Assembly: GCA_021108335.1 (NCBI GenBank)
Contig: JAIORC010000015.1
Location: 1-40,973 of the forward strand
DNA length: 40,973 bases
Reading direction: 5' to 3'
Origin: Phycisphaerae bacterium
GTDB taxonomy: Bacteria > Planctomycetota > Phycisphaerae > SM23-33
The stretch's first letter is position 1. Each line of letters opens with the position of its first letter. Below are positions 10,408 to 35,330 of this stretch, in pieces. Under the pieces are notes generated by a model. It was not told the origin of the DNA and searched no databases. It saw only the letters and a list, made by a program, of their open reading frames with translations. A program made the translations under genes and the position numbers.

Positions 10408-11742
10408 ATGGAACAGGCTGTTGCTGACGCCCTGGCTTCGATTGCCATGAAGGAAACGTGGACAGTGGAAGATTATCGAGAACTCGTGGAACAACTTTCT
10501 GCCACCACGGATGCCACAAAAGCTCTTCGCGAAATACTTGCCGACCTTGAAGCGCAGAACCCCGCGTCAAAGGGCGGTAGTGCGTTGAAGATCGGTATAG
10601 GCCGGTTCATGCTTTGCCGCTTTAACGAAGCGTTGGAAGCTCTCGGCCTCGCCACGGACAACAAAGACCGTCGCTATTTCGCCGGGCAGTGCTACCGAAG
10701 CATGCGGAAGCACGGCAAGGCAATCGAGGAATTCCAGCGAGCCAAAGACAAGGGCTGGGACGGGCCAGAAGTGGACGTGCTGATCGTCGAGATGCTGGCC
10801 TTGGGTGACCAACTGGACGCGGCGAATAAGGCTTACGCAAAAATTTCCGCCAGCCTGGGCGAAAGTGCGGACTTTTACTACCTCAAGGGACTGCTCCTCG
10901 AAATGGCAGGCCGGGGCGAAGACGCCATCGAAGCCTATGACACCGCACGGGAACACCAGGAAGATCATCCCGAAGCAACATTCCGATTAGCCTACTACCT
11001 CGACCTCCACGGCGAGGAGGAAGAAGCCGTCGAACTCTACGAAGACTGCCTCAATCATCCGTCGGTTTACGTAAGCGCACTGCTGAACCTGGCTGTGCTG
11101 TATGAAGACTCCGGGCACTTTAACCTGGCGATCTCCACCCTGCAAAAGCTTCTGGATGTCTGCCCCGACCATCCGCGGGCAAGGCTGTTCCTCCGCGATG
11201 CCGAAGCCTCCACCCACATGCTCTACGACGAAGACCGGGCACGACGAATCGCCAAACACAGCGCCGTACTCGACATACCCGTAACAGATTTCGAACTGTC
11301 GGTACGGGCACGCAATTGCCTCAAGAAGATGAATATTATGACTTTGGGCGATCTGGTCAGCACGAGCGAGGCGGAGCTGCTTGGCTACAAGAACTTCGGA
11401 GAAACGTCCCTCAAGGAAATCAAGGACATGCTCACCGCCAAGAGATTACGTCTCGGCCAGGCTTTGGAAGAGCAGCAGGAAGCGCTCGCAAAGGGTATAT
11501 TCGGCGAAGCGGAGCAAGTTCCCGAAGAGGAACAAGGCGTCATGGGCATACTTATTTCGCAGGTCGAGTTTTCCGTTCGTGCCCGCCGGGTGCTGGAACA
11601 GCTTAACGTTCGATCCCTCGGCGACCTGGCTGCCAAAAGTGAAGCCGAACTGATGGGACAGAAAAACTTCGGCCAAACCAGTCTCAGTGAAATGCGACAG
11701 CGCCTGGCGGAAAACGGCCTGAGCTTCCGAAACTCGGAATAG
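10408..11742 (+). CDS. TPR protein with two RNA polymerase alpha-CTD-like domains
   Basis: 444 residues. The first 270 form TPR-like helical pairs (for example GKAIEEFQRAKDKG, GEDAIEAYDTAREHQ, EEEAVELYEDCLNH, FNLAISTLQKLLDVCP). Two modules resembling the C-terminal domain of RNA polymerase alpha follow, at about 290-350 and 384-442. Module 1 has FELSVRARNCLKKMNI and NFGETSLKEIKDML; module 2 has EFSVRARRVLEQLNV and NFGQTSLSEMRQRL. Set against E. coli alpha, the DNA-contacting Arg265 is kept in both (Arg300, Arg391), as are the Gly296, Ser299 and Glu302 equivalents; Asn268, Cys269 and Lys271 are kept only in module 1. AGGAG lies before the ATG. No alpha N-terminal assembly domain is present, so it is not a polymerase subunit. 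A DNA-binding or polymerase-contacting regulator is inferred. Confidence 0.88.
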   Translation: MEQAVADALASIAMKETWTVEDYRELVEQLSATTDATKALREILADLEAQNPASKGGSALKIGIGRFMLCRFNEALEALGLATDNKDRRYFAGQCYRSMRKHGKAIEEFQRAKDKGWDGPEVDVLIVEMLALGDQLDAANKAYAKISASLGESADFYYLKGLLLEMAGRGEDAIEAYDTAREHQEDHPEATFRLAYYLDLHGEEEEAVELYEDCLNHPSVYVSALLNLAVLYEDSGHFNLAISTLQKLLDVCPDHPRARLFLRDAEASTHMLYDEDRARRIAKHSAVLDIPVTDFELSVRARNCLKKMNIMTLGDLVSTSEAELLGYKNFGETSLKEIKDMLTAKRLRLGQALEEQQEALAKGIFGEAEQVPEEEQGVMGILISQVEFSVRARRVLEQLNVRSLGDLAAKSEAELMGQKNFGQTSLSEMRQRLAENGLSFRNSE

Positions 11743-18743: not shown

Positions 18744-19222
18744 TGGGGTACTCCCTTTTTGCTATCCGCCGCGACCAGACGGACCAACGCGGCCGTCCCC
18801 AGCGACGAACCCACCGACGATATCGGCGGTACAATTATCGTAGGCCATAGAATTTACGACAAACCGCCCCCCACGTCAATAGGAGATTTCACGCTAGGTG
18901 GCACAGGTTTGTAACCTGTGCAAATTCCCACGATATCGTGGGAGACAGAAAAACACATGGTCCCCAGGGGACCATGCCACCCAACATCGTGGTAAATTTC
19001 GCGTGGTGGCCTTCCCAGGCCACCACGGCACAGGTTGCAAACCTGTGCCACCAGCCGCCCACTTGTCAATAGGAGATTTTTCCCCTGCCGCAACAAGGCG
19101 TTTGACGATACAATGGTATTGAGCTGGTCGGTTGACTTGCCGGCTGAATAGCTGCTCTACGGAATGGCTGCTTTGTCGCCGCACAACACAGGGGCGTTTG
19201 CTCCCCCTTGAAAGGATTTGTC
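18744..19222. repeat. Repeat-filled 479-bp intergenic block between tig and the permease
   Basis: Divergent spacer. It holds GGCACAGGTTTG-type hairpin (18898-18921), CCCACGATATCGTGGG (18927-18942), CATGGTCCCC, A, GGGGACCATG (18956-18976), CATGCCACCCAACATCGTGG, GTGGTGGCC...GGCCACCAC (19003-19026) and GGCACAGGTT...AACCTGTGCC (19027-19049). The whole repeat group is bracketed by a perfect 15-bp direct repeat GTCAATAGGAGATTT at 18875-18889 and 19065-19079. The parts at 18744-18870 and 19080-19222 show no recognisable features. Confidence 0.8.
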
Positions 19223-21121
19223 GTGAAATTGTCGCGGAGCCTTGGCTTCTGGGATGTTTTTTGTATCGCCGCGGGCGCGATGATCAGCAGCGGTCTGTTC
19301 ATATTGCCGGGCCAGGCGTTTTTGTCGTCCGGGCCTGCGGTTGTGCTGGCCTATGCCCTGGCGGCGTTGATGATGATCCCAGCCATGCTCAGCCAGTGCG
19401 AACTAGCCACGGCTATGCCCAAAAGCGGCGGCACGTATTTTTTCATTGAGAGAAGCATGGGAGCTTTGCCCGGCATTCTGGCGGGTCTGGCAAACTGGTT
19501 GAGCCTGGCGATGAAGAGCGCATTCGCCATGGTCGGAATAGGGGCGTTCGCCCGGCTGATATGGGCCGACGCCAACCTGACCCCGGCACAATGGATATGG
19601 CTGATTAAAGGCGTCGCCGTCTGCTGCTGCGTGATTTTTGCCGCGCTGAACTGCCTGAGCGTCAAAATGACCGGGCGGGCACAAATCGTGATGGTGGTCA
19701 GCCTGCTGGCGGTGCTGGTGATTTTTGTGTTCGTGGGCGTTCCCAATGTTCAACAACATCCGAATTTCGACAATTTTCTGGGCAAGGGTTTCTGGAGCGT
19801 CTTCGCCACGGCGGGCTTGGTGTTCGTATCGTTCGGCGGGCTGACCAAGGCTGCCAGCGTCGCCGAGGAAGTCCGCAATCCGGGCCGAAACCTGCCGGCA
19901 GCGATGTTCCTGGCGTTTATCATAGTCTCGGCCCTGTACATCGCAGCCGTTTTCGTAATGGTGGGCGTGCTGCCAGGCGGCGAAATCGCCGGCGGCGACT
20001 TCGTAAACCTTACGCCGCTATCCAGCGCAGCCGGGGCCTTCATGGGCAAGGGCGGGCTTGTCCTGCTATCCGTCGCGGCGATACTGGCCTTCATCACGAC
20101 GGGCAACGGCGGCATACTGGCAGCCTCGCGAAGCCCGCTGGCAATGAGCCGCGATGGGCTGCTGCCCAGACCTTTCCAGATAGTCTCCCGCAAATTCGGC
20201 ACGCCGTACGTCAGCGTTCTCTGCACCAGCATATTCATGATCTCGATGATCCTGCTGCTGAGCATCGCCGACCTGGTAAAAGTCGCCAGCACGATGATGC
20301 TGATCCTGTTCCTGCTGGTCAACGTTTCCGTGCTGATTATGCGCGGCAGCAAAATCCAGAACTACCGTCCGAAATTCCGCAGCCCGCTGTTCCCGTGGAT
20401 ACAATTAGCCGGCATTGGCGTCTACGCGGTTCTGATCGTCGAATTGATCGCCATGCTCGGCCTCGTGCCGCTGATTACCACCGGCGGATTCGTACTGGCG
20501 AGCCTGCTGTGGTACTTCGTCTACGTCAGGCCGAAAATCACCCGCGAAAGCGCACTGCTCTACATGGTCAAAAAAGCCGTCTCCAGAGACATCTATCGCA
20601 CCGGCCTGGAAGAAGAACTCAAACACATCGCCGTGGAGCGGGACGAAATCACGCATGACCGATTCGACCATATCGTAAAGGATTGCGAAATATTGGACAT
20701 GCTCGGCCCAACCTCCGCCGAAAAGATGTTCGCCGCCGCCGCGGAACTGCTAGCCGGGCGTCTGAACATATCCGCCGAAACGCTACAGGAAAAATTCCGC
20801 GCCCGCGAAGCCGCCTCCAGCACGGTAATTCAGCCGGGCCTGGCAATTCCGCACATTATCATCGAAGGCCATCACCTCTTTGACCTGCTGCTGGTACGCT
20901 GCCGCGAGGGAATTATTTTCGACCCTGAGCAGCCATACGTCAAAACCGCCTTCATCCTCATCGGCTCATCGGATGAGCGGAACTATCACCTGCGGGCACT
21001 GATGGCCATCGCCAACATCGTCCAGGAACCGGGCTTCATCGAACAATGGCTGGACGCCCCCCGCCCAGAACACCTCCGCGACCTGATACTACTGTCCAGC
21101 CGCAAAAGAGATAAGGCCTGA
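19223..21121 (+). CDS. APC-family amino acid permease fused to a PTS EIIA-like domain
   Basis: 632 residues from GTG 19223, chosen because AAAGGA lies 6 nt upstream; an in-frame TTG at 19208 has no such site. The first 440 residues are a 12-helix amino acid-polyamine-organocation transporter: GFWDVFCIAAGAMISSGLF in helix 1, CELATAMPKSGGTYFFIE in helix 2, FGGLTKAASVAEEVRNPGR between helices 6 and 7, and AASRSPLAMSRDGLLP. After a linker, residues about 485-625 form a mannitol/fructose/nitrogen-type EIIA domain: SSTVIQPGLAIPHIIIEG has the phospho-acceptor-type His544, and DERNYHLRALMAIANIV has the second conserved His (about 589). Regulation of uptake by PTS-type phosphorylation is inferred; no EI, HPr or EIIBC gene is in the window. 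Confidence 0.9.
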   Translation: MKLSRSLGFWDVFCIAAGAMISSGLFILPGQAFLSSGPAVVLAYALAALMMIPAMLSQCELATAMPKSGGTYFFIERSMGALPGILAGLANWLSLAMKSAFAMVGIGAFARLIWADANLTPAQWIWLIKGVAVCCCVIFAALNCLSVKMTGRAQIVMVVSLLAVLVIFVFVGVPNVQQHPNFDNFLGKGFWSVFATAGLVFVSFGGLTKAASVAEEVRNPGRNLPAAMFLAFIIVSALYIAAVFVMVGVLPGGEIAGGDFVNLTPLSSAAGAFMGKGGLVLLSVAAILAFITTGNGGILAASRSPLAMSRDGLLPRPFQIVSRKFGTPYVSVLCTSIFMISMILLLSIADLVKVASTMMLILFLLVNVSVLIMRGSKIQNYRPKFRSPLFPWIQLAGIGVYAVLIVELIAMLGLVPLITTGGFVLASLLWYFVYVRPKITRESALLYMVKKAVSRDIYRTGLEEELKHIAVERDEITHDRFDHIVKDCEILDMLGPTSAEKMFAAAAELLAGRLNISAETLQEKFRAREAASSTVIQPGLAIPHIIIEGHHLFDLLLVRCREGIIFDPEQPYVKTAFILIGSSDERNYHLRALMAIANIVQEPGFIEQWLDAPRPEHLRDLILLSSRKRDKA

Positions 21122-21983: not shown

Positions 21984-22124
21984 CGCGGTGGCCTTCCCAG
22001 GCCACCGCGTTCACGCCGAACTTCGGAACCGCTTTGTACGTCTTGCCTTGACTTCCCCCGGTCAGATTCGTAAAACGCCCTATGTAGCAACCGTCTACGG
22101 CACAGGTTACAAACCTGTGCCACC
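21984..22124. repeat. Hairpin repeats before the aminotransferase gene
   Basis: GCGGTGGCC...GGCCACCGC (21985-22008) and GGCACAGGTTACAAACCTGTGCC-type hairpin (22099-22122). The two modules, adjacent in other copies (35194-35240, 19003-19049), are here separated by about 90 bp. The second one ends 18 bp before the aminotransferase start. Confidence 0.75.
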
Positions 22125-28052: not shown

Positions 28053-28084
28053 GATATTCCTGGGTAATAGTCGGCAAGTTCTCG

Positions 28085-28109
28085 CCACAGGTTACAAACC
28101 TGTGCCACC
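28085..28109. repeat. CACAGGTTACAAACCTGTG hairpin
   Basis: Single copy of the CACAGGTT/AACCTGTG module, in the space between rpmE and prfA. Confidence 0.7.
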
Positions 28110-35115: not shown

Positions 35116-35330
35116 AACACACCGCACACGCCGGGTGGCATGGTTTTTTGTAGGGTGGGTGCTCCCGCTCCCGCAGCCTACTATAACCCTAGCGTGGTGG
35201 CCTTCCCAGGCCACCACGGCACAGGTTACAAACCTGTGCCACCGCAATATTCCATTTGCTTGGGTGGCATAGTCCCCCCCTTGGGGCAGGCCTGGGGACC
35301 ATGTGTTTTTCGCCGCGAACATCACACGAT
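35116..35330. repeat. Hairpin repeat cluster before folP, left half
   Basis: Modules in order: TGTAGGGTGGGTGCTCCCGC, degenerate (35150-35173); GTGGTGGCC...GGCCACCAC (35194-35217) joined to GGCACAGGTT...AACCTGTGCC (35218-35240); GGGTGGCATAGTCCCC...GGGGACCATG (35263-35302). No ORF. With the next entry this covers the space to folP. Confidence 0.75.

Follow-up and report, generated by a model that had tools for sequence, protein, structure and literature searches.

The fusion gene and its surroundings

The stretch of DNA analysed here (the window) comprises 40,973 nucleotides of a contig from a Phycisphaerae bacterium. A single open frame of 632 codons on the plus strand (19223-21121) encodes an APC permease followed by a PTS EIIA domain, and an in-frame TTG is present at 19208, upstream of the GTG at 19223. 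The sequence-only reading had called an APC permease fused to EIIA at this place, and this was borne out as the frame is open there and both Pfam domains were found in it. The features of the locus were as follows:

19223..21121, plus strand: APC permease-EIIA fusion gene, 632 aa, GTG start
19211..19216, plus strand: AAAGGA, probable ribosome-binding site 6 nt upstream of the GTG, read from the sequence
19241..20521, plus strand: APC carrier domain, residues 7-433 (Pfam AA_permease_2)
19514..19516, plus strand: Lys98 codon, in the predicted third transmembrane helix; Lys in 31/31 independent homologues
20531..20710, plus strand: helical linker, residues 437-496, which also precedes EIIA in a CLC-channel fusion
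20711..21088, plus strand: PTS EIIA type-2 domain, residues 497-622 (Pfam PTS_EIIA_2)
20804..20806, plus strand: codon of Arg528, which pairs with E. coli PtsN Arg57 in the alignment
20852..20854, plus strand: codon of His544, the putative phosphate acceptor, which pairs with E. coli PtsN His73
20987..20989, plus strand: codon of His589, the second His of the active site, which pairs with E. coli PtsN His120
18900-18922, 19027-19049, 22099-22121, 28084-28106 and 35218-35240: copies of the palindrome GGCACAGGTTNNNAACCTGTGCC

The neighbouring genes in the window, which include two ClpP, trigger factor and class III and class V aminotransferases, gave no clue to the substrate, and a comparison of 22 loci showed no conserved gene neighbour, leaving aside loci that share a genome and weak groups of 2-5 loci. 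The 23-bp palindrome GGCACAGGTTNNNAACCTGTGCC occurs in five copies in the window (at most 3 mismatches) where shuffling predicts none, and the copies at 18900-18922 and 19027-19049 closely precede the fusion gene. Besides, the window encodes at 10408-11742 (plus strand) a 444-aa protein in which, unusually, TPR repeats occur together with two matches to the RNA polymerase alpha-CTD.

The carrier domain

The carrier matched AA_permease_2 at E 1.1e-54 and 186.5 bits (cut-off 27) over profile positions 1-421 of 427, a full-length match that places it in the APC superfamily. With a complete APC profile, 12 helices are plausible; hydropathy gave 11 peaks in the carrier and one spurious peak within EIIA. 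As every listed match to NCBIfam/TIGR subfamily models (25 of 36) was below its cut-off, no substrate could be named from that source. The carrier is homologous to the solved APC amino acid transporters GkApcT (5oqt, E 1.1e-30) and MjApcT (3gi9), whose matched chains of 444-471 aa, unlike the window protein, have no space for an EIIA domain. Lys98 was kept in all 31 independent fused homologues and also in variants of the architecture APC-Usp-EIIA. In GkApcT, a lysine of TM5 (Lys191 in 5oqt) has a role in coupling, and this position corresponds to Leu161 in the window carrier (codon 19703-19705). Coupling may thus differ in the Lys98 subfamily, where the TM3 lysine is conserved instead.

The EIIA domain and its active site

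The profile search suggested by the earlier reading returned PTS_EIIA_2 over residues 497-622 at E 7.6e-18, with 65.3 bits against a cut-off of 27. We compared a profile built from 25 carrier-type EIIA domains with solved structures, and it matched E. coli PtsN (1a6j) at E 1.1e-14, three further PtsN entries at about 1e-12 and the mannitol IIA (1a3a) at 2e-6. The histidine of the AIPH motif, as read before, is His544 and aligns with His73 of PtsN, and the second histidine, in YHLRAL, is His589 and aligns with His120. Together with Arg57, these are the active-site residues of PtsN; their numbering was counted along the printed alignment to 1a6j. The alignment therefore provides the phospho-His, the neighbouring His and the Arg of a type 2 EIIA active site, and, judged by sequence, the domain is a genuine EIIA-2 domain with a predicted phospho-His site. 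AlphaFold2 models of the C-terminal 196 aa and of the full-length protein had pLDDT of 43.8 and 46.8, being built on alignments of only 3 sequences (the window, L010 and L011), and were too weak for a helix count. As their pLDDT was low, the active-site assignment rests on the profile alignment to solved EIIAs.

Conservation and distribution of the fusion

His544 was retained in 63/63 fused homologues from two phyla. In the first set (the window and 31 homologues) His544 was present in 32/32 and His589 in 31/32, and in the second, taken from the phylum to which the Pontiella record L011 belongs, in 31/31 and 29/31, respectively; His589 was thus replaced in 3 of the 63, once by F and twice by Y. 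The first set leaves out L012 (frame-shifted), L014 (the window itself) and L013 (residues 1-436 only, with no EIIA match) and includes one Usp variant, L042. The second, drawn after the first, consists of L066-L096 and omits L097-L113, a mixture of additional copies, variants with Usp, carriers of other kinds and broken frames such as L100, L101, L112 and L113. The only invariant EIIA columns of the first set were His544, Leu593 and Phe605, at a median pairwise identity of 30%. Across EIIA domains of all architectures (n=102), the phospho-His was found in 102/102 and the second His in 91/102. Soluble PtsN keeps His544 just as strictly, and its conservation is therefore no proof in itself of a role in transport.

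In the window's phylum, 29 of 294 genomes carry a collinear APC-EIIA frame by counted rows, including G084, whose row ends at residue 564 yet whose frame matches 2-627, and G191, whose row begins at residue 56. Matches at E <= 1e-20 occurred in 119/294 genomes, many of them permeases without EIIA coverage. Seven more genomes encode APC-Usp-EIIA proteins, confirmed by Pfam in L042 and L102-L107. In the phylum of L011, 29/194 genomes had a match at E <= 1e-40, of which 27 were full-length by counted rows, with a TGA flagged in one of these, G434. The nearest named relatives were Planctomycetota and Phycisphaerales MAGs. By these sequence comparisons, the APC-EIIA fusion is a conserved family in planctomycetes and relatives.

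Phosphate donors and the type of PTS

The window's genome (G000, 91% complete) encodes three EIIA-2 domains, in a soluble PtsN, in a protein of HTH_17-EIIA architecture and in the APC-EIIA fusion, together with one HPr and one EI. The EI (L007:7801-9609) is the sole PF05524 match of the genome, the other PEP-utilizers_C match being a 902-aa frame elsewhere. In L007 the genes for PtsN, HPr and EI follow one another and adjoin an hpf-like ORF, named from its translation. The earlier reading had named a genome without EI and HPr as the outcome that would count against it, and had proposed HPr or a nitrogen-PTS equivalent as donor. A donor pair is indeed there; the nitrogen part did not hold up, as the sole EI has the three domains of the EI core but lacks GAF. 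An N-terminal GAF domain is the hallmark of EI-Ntr, and its absence from this EI leaves nitrogen sensing unsupported; an input of PEP/pyruvate to the EIIA is likelier than one of nitrogen. The HTH_17-EIIA protein of the same genome (239 aa, L008:1871-2590, minus strand) is a possible PTS-controlled DNA-binding regulator.

A search of 30 genomes with the fusion detected EI in 29 of them and HPr in 28. As both are near-universal in the phylum (EI in 276/294 and HPr in 281/294 genomes), their co-occurrence with the fusion shows that a donor exists, not that the two are linked. Neither EI nor HPr was detectable in G041, which carries the closest homologue found in the phylum scan (genome incomplete, 83%), or in G065 (incomplete, 84%), and HPr was not detected in the incomplete G093. 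G065 was considered as a case of an unfused homologue in a PTS-less genome and rejected, since its copy is broken by an assembly gap, a run of N that interrupts the frame, with the EIIA coming after it.

As for sugar import, the search for EIIB and EIIC covered two families, PF02302 and PF02378. PTS_EIIC (PF02378) was found in 0/30 fusion genomes, G000 included, with 7/14 controls positive, and PTS_IIB (PF02302) likewise in 0/30, with 6/14 controls positive. With no detectable PTS_EIIC or PTS_IIB, regulation and not sugar import is the plausible role, and the PTS of the fusion-bearing genomes looks like a signalling PTS. HPr kinase gave no match above cut-off in the 30 genomes, only 2 sub-threshold fragments; with a modest control sensitivity (2/14 above the cut-off), this negative is weak. 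A same-class genome also encodes an 831-aa HPr-EI-EIIA polyprotein (L046:474-2966, plus strand) with no EIIB/EIIC domain inside.

The EIIA cassette on other proteins

EIIA-2 domains were found in many long frames across the 30 genomes. By Pfam, they are borne by Na+/H+ exchangers (L048, L050 (twice), L054, L056, L057 and L111), by HCO3- transporters, where EIIA is N-terminal (L047 and L052), by a sulfate permease with a STAS-like stretch (L053) and by a CLC channel (L110), while two of the APC-EIIA proteins additionally carry TrkA_C (L031 and L034). EIIA-2 is thus fused to five carrier families: APC, Na_H_Exchanger, CLC, sulfate permease and HCO3 transporter. These other fusions of the same phylum likewise hold an EIIA-2 with its phospho-His and differ from the window protein in their transport domain and in the frequent addition of TrkA_N, Usp or STAS.

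The window EIIA shared 40-44% identity with the EIIAs of four exchangers and 39% with that of the CLC protein, against 31% with the PtsN of its own genome, and its linker (residues 437-496) was recognisable in the CLC fusion at 35% identity (E 5e-6). In a tree of 102 EIIA domains, a branch with support 100/94 sets PtsN and several fusions apart from a group of APC-EIIA, APC-EIIA-TrkA_C, five exchangers and the CLC protein; the tree leaves out L041 (short domain match), duplicates, L049, L051, L055, L060, L061, the second EIIA gene of L059 and the Usp variants L104-L106. Four of the eight exchanger EIIAs and the CLC EIIA nest among the APC-EIIA rows, and this nesting indicates, at the level of sequence, that the EIIA cassette has moved among unrelated carriers. 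The APC-Usp-EIIA rows fall on the PtsN side, and a constraint placing all 65 APC rows in one clade was rejected (p-AU 0.0005). This test was chosen after the tree had been viewed, and the finer details of the tree are rough, with long branches and an unsettled bootstrap. As Lys98 is common to both kinds of carrier, the same carrier subfamily would have been paired with EIIA at least 2 times, and apparently Lys98-type carriers were joined to EIIA of two origins.

Apart from these carriers, EIIA-2 precedes DacZ_P and a DAC diadenylate cyclase domain in two proteins (L058:1565-3178 and L059:1598-3145, both on the minus strand), and a third frame, in L060, reads like the same architecture; these proteins may give the PTS a direct input into c-di-AMP synthesis. 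The N-terminal EIIA-2 of the HCO3- transporters (L047:886-3018 and L052:867-2954, both on the minus strand) retains the phospho-His and overlaps the Band_3_cyto profile, a possible bridge from PTS EIIA to the eukaryotic Band 3 domain.

Comparison with known systems

Like LacS and RafP, the window protein joins a PTS IIA domain to the C-terminus of a secondary carrier. The parts differ, however, as LacS and RafP combine a GPH sugar carrier with IIA-Glc (PF00358), whereas an APC carrier is combined here with EIIA-2 (PF00359); Pfam found no GPH and PF00358 pair in the window protein. The IIA domain of LacS is phosphorylated by HPr(His~P), which regulates transport, according to two sources (PMC10703360, PMC2848229). 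As to direction, a table in one review has the phosphorylation of the LacS domain inhibit transport (PMC10710835), whereas a title cited elsewhere has phosphorylated IIA increase LacS activity (PMC10703360). As these sources disagree, the sign of the LacS effect is not transferable to the window protein.

E. coli PtsN is alike in EIIA class and in its three active-site residues, and transporters are among its targets. PtsN is a free protein acting in trans, whereas the window EIIA is covalently part of its carrier, and the donor EI of the window's genome, in contrast to the E. coli system, has no GAF domain. Two papers state that unphosphorylated PtsN inhibits the antiporter YcgO (PMC11808508) and that PtsN interacts with TrkA and KdpD (PMC13104625).

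Proposed mechanism and alternatives

The reading that we favour, and regard as reasonably probable, is built-in PTS control of an APC-type carrier for amino acids or a related solute through its tethered EIIA. The EIIA would sit on the cytosolic C-terminus of the carrier; EI would pass phosphate from PEP to HPr, and HPr would pass it on to His544. Depending on its phosphorylation state, the EIIA would then alter carrier activity via the conserved helical linker, and transport would track the PEP/pyruvate state, hence energy and carbon, with no need of a separate regulator. On the model of E. coli PtsN, which acts in trans on K+ transporters, inhibits YcgO when unphosphorylated and interacts with TrkA and KdpD, the dephosphorylated EIIA is more likely to be the brake on the carrier. 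For the window protein, we infer the phosphotransfer, the effect on transport, its sign and the substrate. The earlier interpretation was right in outline, given the EIIA-2 site and the donors present, and its reference to nitrogen is to be dropped, as the EI has no GAF domain.

Other explanations were weighed against this control of the carrier by its own EIIA. EIIA usually feeds EIIB/EIIC, and if this one did so in a group translocation its phosphate would end up on the transported substrate; but neither PTS_IIB nor PTS_EIIC had any match in the 30 fusion genomes and the transport domain is of the APC and not of the EIIC type, which makes such a route very improbable. Hardly any credence can be given to an artefact of assembly or gene calling that united two genes. 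The coding region is broken or frame-shifted in G209, L012 and G130, but collinear single-frame fusions were counted in 29/294 and 27/194 genomes, and those of the window's own phylum exclude an assembly join as the source of the fusion.

In eukaryotic Band 3, the cytoplasmic domain resembles EIIA and is regarded as a structural or oligomerisation module, and we consider it quite improbable that the tethered EIIA is likewise passive, with no part in a phosphorelay. Papers on slc4 genes use the term PTS_EIIA_2, in keeping with EIIA-like domains on eukaryotic SLC4 proteins (PMC7692064, PMC9746111), and Band_3_cyto overlaps EIIA in the planctomycete bicarbonate transporters. A passive module, however, would have no need for the phospho-His, Arg528 and His589 jointly; His544 is kept in all 63 fused homologues while most of the EIIA drifts, and EI and HPr exist in the genome. 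Unlikely too, though deserving some weight, is an EIIA that is phosphorylated and acts elsewhere, e.g. by relaying to or sequestering a different protein at the membrane, much as soluble PtsN works on partners in trans (PMC13104625, PMC11808508). With EIIA-2 fused to five carrier families, local control of each carrier is the simplest reading and argues against such action at a distance.

Significance

A full-text search of mainly open-access literature found no paper describing APC-EIIA fusions, and domain databases may already list the architecture. LacS and RafP are known cases of transporters that have an IIA domain built in. The window protein follows that logic with a different carrier family and a different class of EIIA, conserved in two phyla and in genomes with no detectable PTS_EIIC or PTS_IIB, and an EIIA cassette is seen moving between unrelated carriers. 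This gives the 'orphan' PTS of planctomycetes and relatives a concrete, testable job.

More tentatively, and perhaps somewhat against the odds, the PTS of these genomes could be a carrier-control bus: sugar import would have been lost, and one EI-HPr pair would phosphorylate a fleet of amino-acid, Na+/H+, chloride, sulfate-type and bicarbonate-type carriers, through an interchangeable, covalently attached EIIA cassette, along with a diadenylate cyclase. If so, the energy state of the cell would jointly govern c-di-AMP, the transport of solutes and the balance of ions and pH, and TrkA_C would provide some of the APC-EIIA carriers with a second input.
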